Source: Pseudonocardia alni (GTDB lineage: Bacteria; Actinomycetota; Actinomycetes; Mycobacteriales; Pseudonocardiaceae). From it: a stretch of 64,000 nt of DNA. Below, in pieces: positions 3,923 to 59,666 of this stretch (position 1 is its first letter; every line of letters starts with the position of its first letter). The stretch is from positions 4,960,001-5,024,000 of the forward strand of contig NZ_PHUJ01000003.1 in assembly GCF_002813375.1 (NCBI RefSeq). The letters run 5' to 3'. The notes below the pieces were generated by a model, which did not search any database, was not told the origin of the DNA, and saw only the letters and a program-made list of their open reading frames with translations. The translations under genes and the position numbers were made by a program.

Positions 3923-5366
3923 TCAGGCGATCTGCCGGTCGGTGGGGTCGATCGGGCGTGGCAGCACGGTGCGCCCGGTCAGGTACTCGTCCACCCCGGC
4001 GGCCGCGGACCGGCCCTCGGAGATGGCCCACACGATCAGGGACTGGCCGCGGCCCATGTCACCGGCGACGAACACGCCGTCGGCGGAGGACATGTAGCGG
4101 TCGTCGCGGGCGACGTTGCCGCGCTCGTCCAGGTCGACCTCGAGGTCGTTCAGCAGGGCGCCCTTCTCCGGGCCGACGAAGCCCATCGCGAGCAGCACCA
4201 GCTGCGCGGGGAGCTCCTGCTCGGTGCCCTCGACGGGCTCGAAGCCGTTGTCCCCGCGCTTGACCTCGACGATCCGGATGCCGGCGAGCTTGCCGTCGGC
4301 GTCCTTCACGAACTCGGTGGTGTTGACCGAGAACAGCCGGTCGCCGCCCTCCTCGTGCGCGGAGGACACCCGGTAGACCGTCGGGTAGGTCGGCCACGGC
4401 ATGTTGTCGGTGCGCTGCTCGGGCGGGGTCGGCATGATCTCCAGCTGGGTCACCGAGCGCGCACCCTGGCGGTGCGAGGTGCCCAGGCAGTCGGCGCCGG
4501 TGTCACCGCCGCCGATGATCACGACGTCCTTGCCCTCGGCCGAGATCGGCGGCGCGTCCAGGTCGCCCTGCTGCACGTGGTTGGCCCACGGCAGGAACTC
4601 CATCGCCTGGTAGACGCCCTCGGCGTCGCGGCCCTCGGCGGGCAGGTCTCGCCACGCCGTCGCACCGCCCGCGAGGACGACCGCGTCGAAGTCGGCCCGC
4701 AGCTGCTCGACGGTGACGTCGGTGCCGACGTCGACCGAGGCCCGGAAATGGGTGCCCTCGGCGACCATCTGCTCCAGGCGCCGGTCCAGGCGCGCCTTCT
4801 CCATCTTGAACTCGGGGATGCCGTAGCGCAGCAGTCCGCCGATGCGGTCGGCCCGCTCGAACACGACGACCTCGTGCCCGACCCGGGTCAGCTGCTGGGC
4901 GGCGGCCAGCCCGGCCGGCCCCGACCCGATGACGGCGACCTTCTTGCCGGTCTTCACCTCGGGCACCTGCGGGGTGACCCAGCCCTCGTCCCACGCCTTG
5001 TCGATGATCTCGATCTCGACCTGCTTGATCGTGACCGCGTCGTCGTTGATGGCCAGCACGCACGCCGCCTCGCACGGGGCGGGGCACAGCGTCCCGGTGA
5101 ACTCCGGGAAGTTGTTCGTGGCGTGCAGGCGCTCGATCGCCTCGCGCCAGTCGTGGCGGTAGACCAGGTCGTTCCACTCGGGAATGAGATTCCCGAGCGG
5201 ACAGCCCTGGTGGCAGAACGGGATGCCGCAGTTCATGCAGCGCCCGGCCTGGGACTCCAGGGTCTTCGCCGGGAAGTCCTCGTAGACCTCGCGCCAGTCC
5301 ATCAGCCGCAGGTCCACCGGCCGCCGGGTGGGCGTCTGCCGGGGAGTGGTCATGAAGCCCTTGGGG

Positions 5367-5374: not shown

Positions 5375-9938
<4,564 letters not shown>

Positions 9939-52739: not shown

Positions 52740-53978
52740 ATGTCGGCCGACCGCGCCCGTTCCGCGCTGGTCGCGTCCCTGGTCCGCGACGGCCGGGTGC
52801 GCACCTCCGCGGTCCGCGCGGCACTGGAGACGGTGCCGCGCCACCTGTTCCTGCCGGCCCTCGACCCCGGCGGGGCCTACGCCGACGTCGCCGTCCCGAT
52901 CAAAATCGACGACGGCGTCACGGTCAGCTCGGTCTCCCAGCCGTCGATGGTCGCGATCATGCTGGAACAGCTGGAGGCCGGGCCGGGACACCGGGTGCTG
53001 GAGATCGGTGCGGGGGCCGGCTGGAACGCGGCGCTGCTGGCGGAGCTGGTCGGTCCGGACGGGGCCGTGACCACCCTCGACATCGACGACGACCTGGTCG
53101 CCGGGGCCCGGGCGAACCTGGACGCCGCCGGGTTCGACGACGTCGACGTCGTCGTCGGGGACGGGGCGCTCGGGTACCCGCCCGCGGCGCCCTACGACCG
53201 GATCCAGCTGACCGTCGGCTCCACCGGCGTTCGGCCGGAGTGGGTCGCCCAGCTCGCGCCCGGCGGCCGGCTGCTGCTGCCGCTCACGGTGCGCGGCAGC
53301 CAGCTGTCGGTGGCGTTTGTCCACACCGCTCCGGGACGGCTGCACTCGCGGTCGGTGCGCAGCTGCGCGTTCGTCCGGCTGCGCGGGGAGGGTGCCGACC
53401 CGGGCGCCGAGGTCGCGCTGCCGGACGGCCGGTGGCGGGTGCAGCCCGCCTGCGGCTCCGATGACGCCGACGTCCCGGACCCGCGGGCGCTGGCCCGCGC
53501 GACCACGGGTGCGGGCTCCGACCGGCCGGTGGCAGCGGCGGGCACGGTGGCGGATCTGTGGGACGGGCTCGGGCTGTGGTGCGCGGTCGCCGACCCGGGG
53601 GTGGTGCGGCTGTTCGGCCCGGCCGAGGGTGGGGCGGCACCGGCGCTGTTCGACCTCGGTGGTGTCCGCGCGACGCTGGGCCTGGTCGCGGGCGACGGGT
53701 GCGCGGTGCTGCTGGCGAACCCGGAGGCGACGGTGCGGGCCTGCGGGCCGGACGGTGACCGCGCCGCCGAACGGCTGGCCGGGCTGGTCGCGGGGTGGGT
53801 CGACGCGGGCCGGCCGCACGCGGCGGACCTGCGGATCGAGGCGGTCGTCCCGTCGCTCGCCGGTCCCGGTGGCGGTGCGGAGCGCGGGTCCGTTGTGGAC
53901 CGGGCCGGGCCGGCGGACGTGGTGGTGGACGGCGCGGGTACCCGGCTGACGCTGCGCTGGGGTCCGGCCACGGCCTGA
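52740..53978 (+). CDS. PCMT-like methyltransferase with extra C-terminal domain
   Basis: A 412-residue protein. Residues 1-190 form the protein-L-isoaspartate O-methyltransferase fold: VPRHLFLP, VSSVSQPSMVAIMLEQL and the SAM motif VLEIGAGAGWNAALLAELVG. The last 210 residues have no family I know (strand-rich, LGLWCAVADPGVVRLFG, TLRWGPATA end). Similar two-part proteins occur in actinobacteria, some near lanthipeptide genes, but no precursor peptide is seen here. CACAAT at 52728-52733 ends 6 bp before the ATG, suggesting a leaderless message. Confidence 0.8.
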   Translation: MSADRARSALVASLVRDGRVRTSAVRAALETVPRHLFLPALDPGGAYADVAVPIKIDDGVTVSSVSQPSMVAIMLEQLEAGPGHRVLEIGAGAGWNAALLAELVGPDGAVTTLDIDDDLVAGARANLDAAGFDDVDVVVGDGALGYPPAAPYDRIQLTVGSTGVRPEWVAQLAPGGRLLLPLTVRGSQLSVAFVHTAPGRLHSRSVRSCAFVRLRGEGADPGAEVALPDGRWRVQPACGSDDADVPDPRALARATTGAGSDRPVAAAGTVADLWDGLGLWCAVADPGVVRLFGPAEGGAAPALFDLGGVRATLGLVAGDGCAVLLANPEATVRACGPDGDRAAERLAGLVAGWVDAGRPHAADLRIEAVVPSLAGPGGGAERGSVVDRAGPADVVVDGAGTRLTLRWGPATA

Positions 53979-54087
53979 CACGCGGGGTCACGGCCCGGAG
54001 CCGGGCCCGGGGCGACACGGTCCCGCACCGCTGCGGCGGCGCGGAGCCCGTGGCCCGGTGCCCCGGCCCACCCGGCGTCCCCGGGCG

Positions 54088-54120
54088 GGCCGCCGGCGGA
54101 CCCCGCGCCCGCCGGCGGCC
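54088..54120. terminator. Hairpin between the PCMT-like and lipoprotein genes
   Basis: A 12-bp stem of GC-only pairs (arms 54088-54099 and 54109-54120) with a 9-nt loop, between convergent genes. Confidence 0.55.
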
Positions 54121-54146
54121 GGCCCGCGGTGACCGGGGCACGGTGC

Positions 54147-54530
54147 TCACCGGGACCGGGTCGTCCGTTTCGGACTCGTCGTCGTCGTCGTCTTCGTCGT
54201 GGTCCTCCTCGTGGTCTGCGGCGCCGAGGTCGCCCGGGGTGCCGGGGTCCGCGCGGCGGAGGTCCGCGGTGTACCCGGGGACCGGGCGACGACCGTGCGG
54301 TGGTGGTCGTGGTCGTCGTCGAGTGCGGACACCGGTACCCACCGCGGTCCGGCCGGTGACACGACCGCCTCGGGCGCAGGGCAGGCGGCCGGGTCCACCT
54401 CGAGGTAGTCGTCGCCGTCGGCCTCCAGGACCCCGCACACCTGCCGTTCCGGCCCGGTCGAGCAGGCGGTCAGCGGGGCGCCGGCGACGAGGACCAGTGC
54501 GAGCGCGGAGAGCCAGGTCGCGGTCCGCAC
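54147..54530 (-). CDS. Small Thr-rich lipoprotein
   Basis: A 127-residue exported protein with a signal peptide (TWLSALALVLVAGAPLTAC) and lipobox LTAC, Cys23 being lipidated. The middle is acidic (EADGDDYLEVDPAACPAPEA) and the last 35 residues are Thr/Arg/Ser/Pro-rich, as if cell-wall linked or disordered. No family recognised. GTG at 54530 is 3 bp after the stop of the DUF4333 gene, so it is the second gene of a two-gene unit. Confidence 0.65.
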   Translation of the reverse strand: MRTATWLSALALVLVAGAPLTACSTGPERQVCGVLEADGDDYLEVDPAACPAPEAVVSPAGPRWVPVSALDDDHDHHRTVVARSPGTPRTSAARTPAPRATSAPQTTRRTTTKTTTTTSPKRTTRSR

Positions 54531-54533
54531 GGC

Positions 54534-55070
54534 TCAGACCTGCTCGACGTCGAAGTTGACCAGACCGCCCTGGACCTCGGTCACGGTCGCGCGGACGTCG
54601 ATCGAGTCCTCGTCGGAGGTGACGCGGCAGCCGACGGCCTGGCCGGTGGTGGGGGCGAGGTCGCCGTCGCAGGTGGTGGCGTCGATCGGGACGCCGGCGT
54701 TCTGCGCGACGAGCGAGCCGACGGTGTCCTGCAGCAGCGCCTTCGGCACCGGGCGGGGCTCGGTGGTGATGTCGAAGGAGACGGTGTCCCCGTCGACGGC
54801 GGTGACGGTGACGACGGCGCCGACCGGCTGGCCACCGGAGTGGAACTCGCAGGTCCGGCTCGCCCCGACGGTCGCGTCGAGGTCGGTGGCGCAGTCGGCC
54901 TTCCCGTTGTCGAGGGAGACGCCCTGCGCGCCCAGCTTGCTGACGATCTGCTGCTCGACGCTGTCCGCCGGGACGGAGGCGAGGCTGCAGGCCGTGGTGC
55001 CGAACAGGACTGTGCTCGTCGCCGCGGCGATGAGGCCGAGCCGGGCGAGGCTGCGCAGGGTGGCGTTCAT
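54534..55070 (-). CDS. Lipoprotein with two DUF4333 domains
   Basis: A 178-residue exported lipoprotein. The signal peptide ends in a FGTTAC lipobox. Two tandem DUF4333 repeats follow (about 30-100 and 105-178), each with a xxVEQQIVSKLGAQG-type helix, a conserved Cys pair (DCATDL/TCEF and TCDGDL/GCRV) and a DTVSFDI or GLVNFDV end. DUF4333 proteins are secreted actinobacterial proteins of unknown role. GGAG precedes the ATG. Heptamer direct repeats lie about 90 bp upstream, next to the SARP gene end. Confidence 0.8.
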   Translation of the reverse strand: MNATLRSLARLGLIAAATSTVLFGTTACSLASVPADSVEQQIVSKLGAQGVSLDNGKADCATDLDATVGASRTCEFHSGGQPVGAVVTVTAVDGDTVSFDITTEPRPVPKALLQDTVGSLVAQNAGVPIDATTCDGDLAPTTGQAVGCRVTSDEDSIDVRATVTEVQGGLVNFDVEQV

Positions 55071-55156
55071 GGTGTCTCCTCGGGTGGTGGCCCCGGCGGC
55101 CCGGGCGGCCGGTGGGGCGAACACCACGAACTCTGCGGTGGGCCACTGGCACTCCA

Positions 55157-55174
55157 CTTGCAGCGGCCTTGCAG
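55157..55174 (-). promoter_or_regulatory. SARP-type heptamer direct repeats before the DUF4333 lipoprotein gene
   Basis: On the reverse strand CTGCAAG occurs twice with a 4-nt spacer (55174-55168 and 55163-55157), an 11-bp period. A weaker GTGCAGG lies about 10 bp further upstream. SARP regulators bind just such heptamer repeats. The -10 hexamer expected 8 bp downstream (CAGTGG) is weak. Confidence 0.5.
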
Positions 55175-55204
55175 GGTCCTGCACGCGGTCCCGCGGAGCG
55201 CGGC

Positions 55205-58111
55205 TCAGGCGCTCCGGCCCACCACCCGGGTGGCGACGGTGCCGCCGTCACCGAGCTCGTCGAGGACTGCGGCGATCGCCGCCCGCCCACCCGCGACGCC
55301 CTCGGTGAACGCGGTGGCGTACCGCTCCGCCGAGCCGCCGAGCGCGGCCCGGACCAGGGCGACGTTGCGCTCGGAGTCCTGCGGGTCCATCTCCTCGGGC
55401 CGGTAGCCGACCTCGCCGCCGACCGCGGACACCGCCCCCAGCAGCAGGGCGCCCCGTACGCCGTCCCCGGACTGCCCCAACGCGCCCGCGAGGGCGTGCA
55501 CCGCGACCAGCCAGGACGTCACGTCGGGCTCGCCACCGAGGAACCGCACGAGCGACTCCGCCTCGTCCAGCGCGGCCGGGTCGCCGCGGTCGAGCAGGGT
55601 CTTCACCAGGTGCCAGCGCGAGGACCCGTCGGCGAACCCGTGCCCGGCCCGCCGCGCGACGGCCACCGCGGACCGCAGCACGTCCAGCGCCGTCGCCGTG
55701 TCCCCGCCGAGGCGCGCGAGGTGCCCGGCGGCCATCAGCGTCTCGGACTCACCGGGGCCGTCCCCGGCCGCGCGCGAGACCGCGAGTGCCTCGCCCAGCA
55801 GGGCCTGTGCGGCCGCCGGGTCGGCCGCCGCGGCCAGGTAGGCCCGGAACGCGAGCCCGCGGGCGACCTTCGTCGGGTGCCGGGCCGGGTCCATCCGTTC
55901 CAGCCCGGCGGCGACGTCGGCGGCCGCACCGGCCGGGTCACCGGCCAGGTAGCGCAGGGGACCGGAGGCGAAGTGCGCCAGCCCGACGGCCTCCGGGTCG
56001 GCGTCCGGCCCGGCCGCGGCCAGCGCGGCGGTGGCCCACCCGATGCCCTCGGCGACCCGGCCGAAGCGGTACCAGTACCAGCCCAGCACCCCGGCCAGGC
56101 GCAGCGCGTCGTCGACCGCGGCGGTACTCCCGTCGGCGAGCGCGGCCCCGAACGCGGCCCGCACGTTCGGCTGCTCGGCTCGGACCCGCCCGAACCAGCG
56201 GGCCGCGTCGTGGCCGAGCCAGGCGGCGTCGGCCTCGGTGACGACGTCGAGGACCCAGCGCCGGTGCGCGGTGCGGGCCGCCGTATGCGCGGCGTCGTCG
56301 AGCAGGGTGTCGCCGAAGGCACGCAGGGACTCCAGCAGCGCGAACCGGCGGGGGCCCGGTGCGCCGGTGTCGACGCCGACCAGGGACTTCGCGACGAGCG
56401 TGGCCAGCCCGTCGCGGACCGGCACCCCGGCGACGTCGGCGGCCGCGGCCGAGTCGAACCCGCCGGTGAACACCGACAGCGCCCCGAACAGCCACCGATC
56501 GGCCGGGCCGAGGTCGTCGACCGACAGCGCGATGGTGTGCTCCAGGCTCCGGTGCCGGGCGGGGGTGCCCCGGCCGGCCCCCACGAGCAGGGAGAACCGG
56601 TCGTCGAGGGCGTCGGCGATCTCCCCGACCGACAGGGTGCGGCTGCGGGCGGCCGCCAGCTCGACGGCCAGCGGGAGCCCGTCGAGCCGGGCGCAGACCT
56701 CGGCGACGCGGGCCCGGTCGTCGCCGGTGGGGGCCACGCCGGGCGCCGCGGCCGACGCGCGGTCCAGGAACAGCTGCTCGGCCGCGGCGGGGGACAGCGG
56801 CGCGAGCTCCAGCAGCTGCTCACCGGGCAGGTCGACGGGCTCGCGGCTGGTCGCGACCACCCGCACGCCGGGGCACTCGGGCAGCAGCGTGGTGAGCAGC
56901 TCGGCGACGGCGTCGAGGACGTGCTCGCAGTTGTCGAGCACCAGCAGGCCGGGGGTGCCGGCCAGGGCGGCGGCGAGCTGGTCGGCGCCCTGGGCGGTGA
57001 GCACCCCGGCGGCCTCGGCGACGACGGGGGCGAGCAGCGCGCCGGAGGTCCCCGGGGCGAGGTCGGCGAGCTCGGTCCACCACACCGGACCGCCCGTGTC
57101 GGCGGCGACGGCCAGCGCGACGCGGGTCTTGCCCACCCCGCCGGGGCCGACGACGGTGACGAGCCGGTGGGCGTCGAGGGCGGCGCGCAGCCCGGCGAGG
57201 TCGTCGTCGCGGCCGAGCAGCGCCGTCGACGGCACCGGCAGCGGCCTGCGGGTGGCCCCGGCGGCGGGCGCCGGGGCGTCGGCGGCGGGGGCCCGGTGCA
57301 GCAGCTCCGGGTCGTGGGCGAGCACCGCCCGCTCGGTCGCGGCGAGTCCGGGCCCCGGGTCGACGCCGAGCTCCTCGGCGAGCAGGTCCCGCGCGGTCCG
57401 CAGGACGGCGAGGGCGTCGGCCTGGCGCCCGGCGCGGTAGAGCGCGCGGGCCCGCAGCTCCCACGCGCGCTCGCGCAGCGGGTACTCGGCGGTGAGCGCG
57501 GCCAGGTCGTCGAGCAGCGTCACGTCCTCGCCGGTGGCGAGCGCGGCGGCGGCCCGGTCCTCGCGGATCCCGGCGCGCAGCTCGGTCAGCGCGGCCACCT
57601 CGGCGGCCAGGAAGGCGCGGTCGGCGAGGTCGCCGAACGGGGTGCCGTCGCCGGTGGCCAGCGCCAGGTCCAGCACGGACACCGCCTCGTGCGGGCGTCG
57701 CTGCGCCAGCGCGGTCGCGCCGCGGGCGGCGAGCTCGCGCATCGCCCACACGTCGACCTGCTCGGGCCGGACGGCCAGGGCGTAGCCGCCGCTGCCGCGG
57801 ACCAGTACCGTCGCGGCCCCGCGGGCCGAGCGGCCGGGCTCCAGGACACCCCGCAGCCGGGCGACGTAGGTGTGCAGCGCCTGCTTCGAGGCCGGGGCGG
57901 GTTCGGAGTCCCAGACGGCGTCGATGAGCAGGTCCTCGGTGGCCGGACGCCCGGCGGCGACGACGAGCGCGGCGAGCAGCGCCCGCGGGCGCGGCCCGCC
58001 GAGCGCCAGGTCGTCGCCGTCACGGCTCGCCCGCACACCACCGAGGACCGAGAGCTGCAGTGACGACGCCTGCGGGGGGACCGCCTCCGCAGGCACGGCA
58101 GGACCGGACAT
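55205..58111 (-). CDS. AfsR/SARP family transcriptional regulator (BTAD-NB-ARC-TPR)
   Basis: A 968-residue regulator. The winged helix of the OmpR/SARP type is at about 18-110 (LSVLGGVRASRDGDDLALGG), the BTAD helical domain at about 115-265 (YPLRERAWELRARALYRAGR), and an NB-ARC/STAND ATPase follows with P-loop GPGGVGKT at about 325 and LVLDNCEHVL. TPR-like helices fill 560-960. Such proteins activate antibiotic or secretion genes in response to signals. TAGGGT ends 6 bp before ATG 58111 (leaderless), with a palindrome over the -35 area. Confidence 0.92.
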   Translation of the reverse strand: MSGPAVPAEAVPPQASSLQLSVLGGVRASRDGDDLALGGPRPRALLAALVVAAGRPATEDLLIDAVWDSEPAPASKQALHTYVARLRGVLEPGRSARGAATVLVRGSGGYALAVRPEQVDVWAMRELAARGATALAQRRPHEAVSVLDLALATGDGTPFGDLADRAFLAAEVAALTELRAGIREDRAAAALATGEDVTLLDDLAALTAEYPLRERAWELRARALYRAGRQADALAVLRTARDLLAEELGVDPGPGLAATERAVLAHDPELLHRAPAADAPAPAAGATRRPLPVPSTALLGRDDDLAGLRAALDAHRLVTVVGPGGVGKTRVALAVAADTGGPVWWTELADLAPGTSGALLAPVVAEAAGVLTAQGADQLAAALAGTPGLLVLDNCEHVLDAVAELLTTLLPECPGVRVVATSREPVDLPGEQLLELAPLSPAAAEQLFLDRASAAAPGVAPTGDDRARVAEVCARLDGLPLAVELAAARSRTLSVGEIADALDDRFSLLVGAGRGTPARHRSLEHTIALSVDDLGPADRWLFGALSVFTGGFDSAAAADVAGVPVRDGLATLVAKSLVGVDTGAPGPRRFALLESLRAFGDTLLDDAAHTAARTAHRRWVLDVVTEADAAWLGHDAARWFGRVRAEQPNVRAAFGAALADGSTAAVDDALRLAGVLGWYWYRFGRVAEGIGWATAALAAAGPDADPEAVGLAHFASGPLRYLAGDPAGAAADVAAGLERMDPARHPTKVARGLAFRAYLAAAADPAAAQALLGEALAVSRAAGDGPGESETLMAAGHLARLGGDTATALDVLRSAVAVARRAGHGFADGSSRWHLVKTLLDRGDPAALDEAESLVRFLGGEPDVTSWLVAVHALAGALGQSGDGVRGALLLGAVSAVGGEVGYRPEEMDPQDSERNVALVRAALGGSAERYATAFTEGVAGGRAAIAAVLDELGDGGTVATRVVGRSA

Positions 58112-58117
58112 ACCCCG

Positions 58118-58152
58118 ACCCTACGAAGATGATCCGGATCTCCGGAATCATC
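58118..58152 (-). promoter_or_regulatory. -10 box and near-palindrome upstream of the SARP gene
   Basis: TAGGGT (58123-58118) is the -10. GATGATCCGGA and TCCGGAATCATC (58128-58152) form an almost perfect inverted repeat covering the -35 position, a good place for a repressor or autoregulator. Confidence 0.5.
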
Positions 58153-58174
58153 TGCTCTGATGATGCGTGGCCGG

Positions 58175-58609
58175 TCAGCCGCGCGGCTCCAGGTGGACCA
58201 GCGGGATCTCCCGGGTGGTGCTGCGCTGGTAGCCGGCGTAGTTGCGGTACTTCCCGGCGATCTGCGGCCAGAGCGTCGCGCGGTCGGCCGGGTCGGCGAT
58301 CCGGGCGCGCATGGGCACGCGTGGCCCGCCCTGCACGGCGACCTCGACGTCCGGGTCCGCACGCAGGTTGAGGAACCAGGCGGGGTGGCGGTCGTCGCCG
58401 CCCCGGGAGGCGACGACGACGTAGCTCCCGTCACCGTGGACCGGTGCCGTGAGCAGCACCGTGCGCGGCTCGCCGGAGCGCCGGCCGCGGGTGGTCAGCT
58501 CGACGACGGGCATCCCCATCGCCGAGTGGCCGACCTTCCCACCGGTCAGCCGGATCAGCAGACGGTGGCCCGCGTTCATGGCCTTCAGCGCGATGTCGGG
58601 TGGGTTCAC
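58175..58609 (-). CDS. Nitroreductase/deazaflavin-dependent oxidoreductase family protein (DDN-like)
   Basis: A 144-residue split-barrel protein. GKVGHSAMGMPVVELTTRGRRSG is the DDN/DUF385 signature that contacts F420, and ASRGGDDRHPAWFLNLRADPDVEV with AGYQRSTTREIPLVHLEP completes the family pattern. These enzymes use F420H2 to reduce quinones or nitro compounds. The GTG at 58609 was chosen because TAGGGT (58622-58617) ends 7 bp before it; a GTG 6 bp further up would overlap the expected transcription start. Confidence 0.87.
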   Translation of the reverse strand: MNPPDIALKAMNAGHRLLIRLTGGKVGHSAMGMPVVELTTRGRRSGEPRTVLLTAPVHGDGSYVVVASRGGDDRHPAWFLNLRADPDVEVAVQGGPRVPMRARIADPADRATLWPQIAGKYRNYAGYQRSTTREIPLVHLEPRG

Positions 58610-58646
58610 GACCACGACCCTACCGGCGGGTAGTCGTCGCGGCGGG

Positions 58647-59666
58647 TCAGCCGGTGGCGGCGATCTTCTCCAGCGACGGCCGCAGCTGGTCGATCAGCCA
58701 CCCGGTGGAGACCACGTTGGGGGCCTGCAGGGCGACGGCCTGGTCGAGGGTGAGGGCGGTGTAGGTGCCGTCACGGACCGCGCGCACCCGCCGGACCAGC
58801 TCGTTGCCCTCGAACGTGGCGCGGTCACCGGCGGCGGCGAAGGTCATCAGGAGCAGATCGGCCTCGGAGAGCCGGGAGACCTCCTCGTAGGAGACGCCGA
58901 CGGTCCCGGGGGCCAGCGCGTCCGACGCCGGTGCGGACCGGAAGGACTCCGGGACCTGCAGGCCCAGCGACCGCATGAACACCGTCGACAGGTTCTGCTC
59001 GCCGACGACCATCGGCAGCACCTCGCCGCGGGCCTGTCCGTAGAGGTAGGTCTTCCCCACGAGGCCGGGCAACCGGTCGCGGACCTCGGCGACCCGTCGG
59101 TCCGCGTCACCGATGAGCTCCTCGACCTCGGCCTCCCGGCCCAGTGCCCGGCCGATCAGGCGCGCGTCGTCCTGCATGGGGGAGCCGTAGAGCGTCCGCG
59201 GGTAGACCACGGTCGGCGCGATCCGGGCGAGCCGGTCGTAGGTCGCCCGGTCGGCGATCTGGTAAGCGCTCGTCGCGAGGATCAGGTCCGGCCGGAAGGC
59301 GGCGATCTGCTCCGGGTCGACGGTCGTCTGCTCGGCCGGGATCGACAGCACCTCGGCGGGGAGCGGGGCGAGGTAGGGAAGGTGCGGGGTGGACCCGGCC
59401 GGGTTCCGTACCGCACCGACGACGGGGGCACCGAGCGTCTGCGCCACCGCGAGGTCGTTCGCGCCGAGCGCGACCACCCGGGTCGGCGGCGCCGGGACCG
59501 TCGTCTCCCCGAACGCGTGGGTCAGCGTGACCGGGAAGGTGCCGTCGCCGGTGCCGGCCGGGGCGGGTGCGGGGGCGGCCGCCGGCCCGCCGCACCCGGC
59601 GAGCAGCAGCACGGCGGCGAGGACGACGACGAGGACCGGGATCCGACGGGCCTGGCTCTGCGACAT
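58647..59666 (-). CDS. Iron-siderophore ABC transporter substrate-binding lipoprotein
   Basis: A 339-residue lipoprotein of the FepB/FhuD type. The signal peptide VLVVVLAAVLLLAGC ends in the lipobox LAGC, followed by a Pro/Ala-rich linker. The periplasmic-binding fold has PPTRVVALGANDLAVAQTLG, AAFRPDLILATSAYQIADRA and WLIDQLRPSLEKI. It would capture ferric siderophore at the cell surface; no permease or ATPase gene is in the window. GAGGAG precedes ATG 59666. An IdeR/DtxR-type iron box lies 19 bp upstream. Confidence 0.9.
   Translation of the reverse strand: MSQSQARRIPVLVVVLAAVLLLAGCGGPAAAPAPAPAGTGDGTFPVTLTHAFGETTVPAPPTRVVALGANDLAVAQTLGAPVVGAVRNPAGSTPHLPYLAPLPAEVLSIPAEQTTVDPEQIAAFRPDLILATSAYQIADRATYDRLARIAPTVVYPRTLYGSPMQDDARLIGRALGREAEVEELIGDADRRVAEVRDRLPGLVGKTYLYGQARGEVLPMVVGEQNLSTVFMRSLGLQVPESFRSAPASDALAPGTVGVSYEEVSRLSEADLLLMTFAAAGDRATFEGNELVRRVRAVRDGTYTALTLDQAVALQAPNVVSTGWLIDQLRPSLEKIAATG

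Follow-up and report, generated by a model that had tools for sequence, protein, structure and literature searches.

A predicted three-repeat SARP operator, conserved at orthologous loci, between an AfsR-like regulator gene and a DUF4333 lipoprotein gene in Pseudonocardia

Three repeats spaced by 11 bp lie between a gene for an AfsR-like large SARP and a gene for a DUF4333 lipoprotein in Pseudonocardia alni, and we regard them, with a probability of about 0.8, as the predicted operator through which the adjacent SARP would switch on the lipoprotein gene. The basis of this reading is the sequence itself, its conservation, its geometry and its co-occurrence with the regulator; from these we infer that the SARP binds the site and activates instead of repressing, where the −10 element and the start site lie, and that the ATPase/TPR part of the regulator senses a signal. 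SARPs have been studied mostly as switches of antibiotic clusters. All coordinates without a genome label refer to the window, that is, the whole stretch of 64,000 nucleotides that was analysed.

On the minus strand, from 55174 to 55146, the site reads CTGCAAG-4-CTGCAAG-4-GTGCCAG, followed by 10 nt and the hexamer CAGAGT. It is placed between the stop codon of the AfsR-like gene (55205-58111) and the ATG of the DUF4333 gene at 55070, 76-104 nt 5′ of the latter. Heptamers 1 (CTGCAAG, 55168-55174) and 2 (CTGCAAG, 55157-55163) are separated by GCCG, and heptamers 2 and 3 (GTGCCAG, 55146-55152) by TGGA. The two exact CTGCAAG copies with a 4-nt spacer and the weaker third that the initial annotation had reported are present as described, on the minus strand; its coordinates also take in a fourth, weak TGCAGG just upstream, which is common only to the near-identical genome G043. 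The −10-like hexamer CAGAGT (55130-55135), whose promoter function is putative, begins 17 nt downstream of the first base of heptamer 3, and a probable ribosome-binding site, GAGGAG, stands at 55076-55081, both on the same strand as the repeats. Scans of 53900-58800 for consensus promoters and terminators found none.

The regulator gene (55205-58111, minus strand) encodes 968 amino acids and was characterized by Pfam, phmmer and orthologue searches. Its product, the likely activator, has the domain order that defines the SARP family, an N-terminal OmpR-type DNA-binding domain (Trans_reg_C, PF00486, 30.9 bits, 2.9e-7, cut-off 26.2) and then a BTAD (PF03704, 108.8 bits, 4e-31, cut-off 22.1), and it matches the AfsR structures 8jke/8k60 at 5e-39 in phmmer; the suggestion that the nearest gene upstream of the repeats encodes a SARP is borne out by these matches. 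A P-loop, GPGGVGKT, can be read in the sequence, and the AAA_16 and TPR_12 matches (23.8 and 23 bits) lie under the Pfam cut-offs of 32.6 and 30.1. The base-contacting residues T88 and R92 of AfsR align to T81 and R85 in the window regulator, and other DNA contacts of AfsR are partly changed (Q48 to R41, K95 to G88). A gene of the F420H2-dependent quinone reductase type (58175-58615) stands 63 bp upstream of the SARP gene on the same strand, and also adjoins the SARP gene in G043, G039 and G029. The neighbours that were checked, in the annotated part of the window, have housekeeping or general functions: RNase E/G, L21, L27, Obg, an amino-acid kinase with PUA (ProB-type), PCMT, the F420H2-dependent reductase, a substrate-binding protein and a RecQ-type helicase.

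The likely target (54534-55070, minus strand) encodes a 178-amino-acid protein with two DUF4333 domains (PF14230, 2.2e-15, in two stretches), which was classed as a lipoprotein from its signal sequence, read by eye. Cys28, at the lipobox, is invariant among 10 aligned proteins, as are four further cysteines at positions 60, 74, 134 and 148. The structure model is confident from about residue 30 and suggests two similar halves, each of a helix plus a sheet. Foldseek returned no match at an E value of 0.001 or better, and the best VIA-align rows, which include cystatin-like and NTF2-like folds, reach a Z of at most 6.1, as unrelated folds do; with structural matches at that level, no function was drawn from the fold. 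The domain is widespread: 143 of the 150 genomes sampled from the family have a match. Behind this gene lies a Thr-rich, lipoprotein-like gene without a Pfam family (54147-54530, minus strand), possibly on the same transcript. The initial annotation had taken the two lipoproteins together as the target; the DUF4333 gene is common to the orthologous loci, and tblastn detected no copy of the Thr-rich gene in the 13-kb loci around it in G043, G039, G028 and G029, so that the pair is not the unit.

Taken by itself, the repeat is real yet within chance. Exact 7-mers recur at 11-bp spacing in 11 pairs and one triple within the window, as against 8-32 pairs and 0-6 triples in 20 first-order Markov resamples of it. 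In a genome scan for the heptamer pair, the exact 18-base pattern proved unique in the 5.99 Mb genome, but with up to two mismatches there were 13 matches compared with 63 for the reversed control; likewise, the triple TGCAAG/TGCMAG/TGCMAG with up to two mismatches gave 20 matches in the 62 genus genomes compared with 53 for its control. Loose copies are therefore not enriched and, as the resample counts match as well, the repeat is not significant on sequence grounds alone. A regulon with the same triple (up to two mismatches) within the P. alni genome was also considered and dropped, as only the window site matched.

It is conservation at orthologous places that raises the repeat above chance. 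Besides the own genome, four of the 62 genus genomes (G043, G039, G028 and G029) gave close orthologues of the regulator (E of 1e-200 or better), and a further ten gave weaker matches, at 1e-100 or better; the first look of this search scored part of the candidates, in the own genome 13 out of 38. In all four, a DUF4333 gene lies directly behind the regulator with the box between them. Across the five genomes, the three TGCMAG cores keep 17 of their 18 positions invariant. The other box positions have two such out of 11, the stretch from the stop codon to the box one out of 30, that from the box to the −10 two out of 10 and the −10 hexamer itself three out of six; for the leader the count is 17 of 45, and for the last codons of the regulator 14 of 21. 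Gaps were scored as not invariant, and the counts are the same with G043 dropped. The core of heptamer 1 is kept in all four genomes, heptamer 2 carries a single change in G029 (TGCGAG), and heptamer 3 contains TGCCAG in five of five. The cores are spaced 11/11 in the window, G043 and G029, 12/11 in G039 and 22/11 in G028, the first figure running from heptamer 1 to the next core; this is the geometry of SARP operators, the 12-bp spacing of G039 lying outside the 11-or-22 definition. At 17 nt from the start of the last heptamer stand CAGAGT (window, G043, G039), GAGTCT (G028) and CAGAAT (G029), so a hexamer of the form NAnnnT occupies that place in five of five loci, compared with 1.6% of positions in control loci. 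A SARP-like geometry had been proposed from the P. alni sequence, with loss of the repeat in strains that have the same genes named as what would speak against it; the repeat is kept at the same place in four other genomes with a close regulator orthologue, and the proposal came through this computational check. That the repeats are a chance pattern without function, which their unremarkable number in the window and the lack of loose copies would allow, is very improbable given that the core bases are kept where the flanks have diverged, among orthologues at 63-73% regulator identity; it was conservation, not the repeat itself, that led us to reject chance alone. In the G029 locus (L059), the SARP orthologue changes reading frame between tblastn segments at about 4388-4390, and the protein encoded by the DUF4333 gene (about 6581-6831) apparently lacks one of the two domains.

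The box also goes with an adjacent SARP gene when DUF4333 genes are surveyed more widely. Upstream regions were scored for 34 DUF4333 loci out of 45 match rows, the 11 rows left out being second domains, close neighbours of scored rows and G015, a near-twin of G014. The nine SARP-adjacent loci score 13-14 of 14, which none of 200 resamples reaches in any of the nine, a further point against chance, and the 25 loci without an adjacent SARP score 8-11; the sites themselves served to shape both this score and the strict rule. Under an earlier, stiffer score the five orthologous loci reached 18, 18, 17, 14 and 14, and the highest of 25 other loci, L021, also reached 14; four of those 25, scoring 11-13, were later assigned to a second SARP described below. 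The strict rule has one match in the window, at the repeat site, none in 1.02 Mb of control loci (both strands), and matches in seven of the eight other positive loci; it misses G026 because the middle core there is CCCG. A BTAD profile found nothing in 65 other DUF4333 loci (25 from the genus and 40 from the family search), some of these stretches being short (L214, 2.5 kb; L200, 3.9 kb); its eight of eight among the positives holds by construction, since most positives trained the profile, and tblastn agrees with this result.

Other DUF4333 genes have upstream words of their own. Three of them (L021, L023 and L024, in G032, G037 and G058), with no SARP gene nearby, share a palindrome-like word resembling AGGGTGGTGCCAGTACCCCTG, perhaps the mark of another DUF4333 regulator. 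At L185 (G021:C85), CGGCAAGTCGGCGCCAAG stands about 300 nt 5′ of the DUF4333 match, just after GACTTGC repeats that run in the opposite direction; there is no BTAD gene in the 12 kb covered, and this locus is a possible exception to the rule that the box goes with a SARP.

In four genomes, G001, G010, G023 and G026, the DUF4333 gene lies behind another large regulator (BTAD plus AAA_16), which BLASTP aligns to the window protein over the SARP domain alone, at about 42%. Cores spaced 10 and 11 lie in the gap behind this second SARP, and CACGGT stands as far from them as the −10-like hexamer does in the window. Seven of the 62 genomes have an orthologue of the second SARP at 1e-200 or better, and a similar box was found behind it in all seven. 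Three of these orthologues were out of sample: G052 and G049 have strict matches and G018 has one core mismatch (the G049 contig ends ahead of the SARP domain, so that this part was not covered). In these three, the box stands directly 5′ of a FAD_binding_4 oxidoreductase gene with no DUF4333 gene between; in the other four, an oxidoreductase gene 80-82% identical lies behind the DUF4333 gene (by Pfam for two of them). The oxidoreductase gene is absent from the window and its four orthologous loci. Because the second SARP has the box with a DUF4333 gene or with the oxidoreductase alone, the box is tied to the regulator, and it is the cargo that varies. In G047, a 45% relative of the window regulator is followed by 11-bp-type repeats and a FAD_binding_4 gene, with no fitting −10 at the set distance from the repeats.

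Further SARP-like sites were found in the genus. In the own genome (G000), a search with the one-mismatch pair turned up CCGCAAG-4-CTGCAAG, with CACGGT at SARP distance, at C3:1546090-1546107 (L002, 1501-1518), ahead of a membrane-protein gene at C3:1546189; this site may be a target in trans of the window regulator or of another SARP. Orthologues of the membrane-protein gene occur in G043, G028, G024 and G018, making five of 62 genomes with G000. In G028, G024 and G018 the gene stands behind yet another BTAD gene, with 11-bp repeats between that score 13, 12 and 13 and fall outside the strict rule because the last core is CAAC or CAAA. In G000 and G043 there is no BTAD gene in the 12 kb covered, and the site keeps two exact cores and CACGGT. 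The own genome has three BTAD matches, and another large BTAD plus AAA_16 regulator lies at C3:5025933 (L172), about 8 kb from the window SARP gene; one regular expression found no box match there.

These observations bear on the possibility that the box is a real operator whose main user is another OmpR-type protein, either one of the two other BTAD proteins or a PhoP-like response regulator. PhoP-like response regulators also bind 11-bp direct repeats, AfsR and PhoP sites overlap according to excerpts of PMC10936776 and PMC10972967, and the CTGCAAG site 5′ of the membrane-protein gene in G000 and G043 has no BTAD gene in the 12 kb covered. The box is nevertheless found at nine of nine DUF4333 genes with an adjacent SARP and at none of 25 without, and the second SARP, different outside its SARP domain, has its own variant of the box. 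We consider another main user unlikely, and favour the adjacent AfsR-like protein.

The 20 genus-wide triple matches include three at the window locus (G000, G043 and G029). Twelve of the 20 were inspected and five followed, picked by appearance; as they were chosen by eye, the matches elsewhere are a lead only. In G006, G007 and G031 (L168, L169 and L170), repeats of the TGCCAG type at 11-bp spacing stand 5′ of ABC-type ATPase genes, named by eye, and are perhaps export switches of the same kind. A BTAD gene lies no more than about 3 kb away in these three and in G016, where the match adjoins an oxidoreductase-like gene; at G021:C218 there is none in the 6.5 kb covered. Outside the genus, 80 AfsR-like loci (up to 45% identity) were kept from 588 confirmed stretches, and none contains a DUF4333 match. 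The strict rule has four matches in 2.13 Mb there, at three loci, a frequency that applies to SARP loci only, these stretches having been picked for holding SARPs; at L087 and L157 the match lies in the gap before the SARP gene, and at L105 before an ABC-type ATPase gene.

The closest known likeness is AfsR-afsS of Streptomyces coelicolor, where afsS is the next gene after afsR and is read in the same direction. By convention, a −10 element starts at −12. With the two repeats of the afsS promoter extending from −40 to −19, where they overlap the −35 region (PMC10936776, in excerpt, as below), the last of them starts 17 nt before the −10, as in the window; the same source gives SARP repeats as 11 or 22 bp apart with the last one 8 bp from the −10. 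Like AfsR, the window protein is large and has a SARP domain, with a probable P-loop ATPase part and a likely TPR end; 11-bp direct repeats over the −35 region are likewise common to the two systems. In contrast, the window repeat is CTGCAAG/GTGCCAG and not the CGTT(T/C)ATCG of the afs box, there are three repeats as opposed to two, the SARP domains are about 41% identical, and the target is a DUF4333 lipoprotein and not AfsS, a 63-amino-acid sigma-like protein. The window system would work like afsR-afsS but differs from it in lacking an afsS target. The unit is most likely a module of the afsR-afsS type, with regulator, operator and small target in the same direction and the lipoprotein in the place of AfsS.

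AfsR recruits polymerase to the poor afsS promoter via its SARP-domain protomers (PMC10936776), and a comparable sequence of events is the most likely one here. Some signal would activate the ATPase/TPR part of the AfsR-like protein, whose SARP-domain protomers would then bind next to each other along a single face of the DNA, immediately 5′ of a poor −10, and recruit RNA polymerase to turn on the DUF4333 lipoprotein gene and perhaps, in this strain, also the Thr-rich gene behind it. Sequence does not give the direction of control, and the leader of about 60 nt is partly conserved, so the neighbour might bind the box as a repressor, or the main product might be something other than the lipoprotein gene, such as a leader RNA. 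The box, however, covers the −35 region at a fixed distance from the −10, which is where SARPs activate, and SARPs are described as activators (PMC10936776; PMC10972967, both in excerpt); repression or a leader RNA seems less likely still than another main user, and activation of the lipoprotein gene remains the reading we prefer.

Other characterized SARPs share parts of this arrangement. The operators of PimR, SanG and PolR have heptamers with 4-nt spacers, as in the window, and their consensus CGGCAAG is one base from CTGCAAG (PMC3367932, in excerpt). Unlike the window regulator, these SARP-LAL proteins have antibiotic genes as targets and a LAL-type C-terminal half, and the PimR site, unlike the window box, does not overlap the −35 region. 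EmbR of Mycobacterium tuberculosis controls cell-wall and cell-envelope genes and not an antibiotic cluster. Its SARP domain is related to that of the window regulator (2fez, phmmer 1.5e-30), from which it differs in having an FHA domain and no ATPase/TPR part (PMC10936776). Among the matches listed in a search of open-licence PMC titles and abstract openings, no paper joins a SARP with DUF4333. The expectation that this would be a new kind of SARP target needs narrowing: a DUF4333 target is unusual, but control outside antibiotic synthesis is already known, AfsR acting on afsS and nutrient genes (PMC10936776).

A wider reading, which we offer tentatively and at somewhat less than even odds, is that the large SARPs of Pseudonocardia belong to small stand-alone cassettes located outside antibiotic clusters, each with a regulator, an operator and a single cargo promoter. 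The regulator would keep its operator while the cargo is exchanged: DUF4333 genes have come under two different SARPs, and at other loci the cargo would be FAD-binding oxidoreductases, a membrane protein or ABC exporters. On this view the lipoprotein serves in a response to envelope or redox conditions that the ATPase/TPR part senses, and the AfsR-like protein would perhaps also act in trans at G000:C3:1546090.

A conserved SARP operator before a lipoprotein gene would offer a simple system of one regulator and one promoter, in which the signal of a large SARP and the role of a DUF4333 lipoprotein can be tested together. The rule that emerges, a regulator, 11-bp repeats and a −10 at a fixed distance, found boxes at orthologues outside its making and therefore may help to predict SARP targets, and related bacteria appear to use similar predicted switches before other genes.
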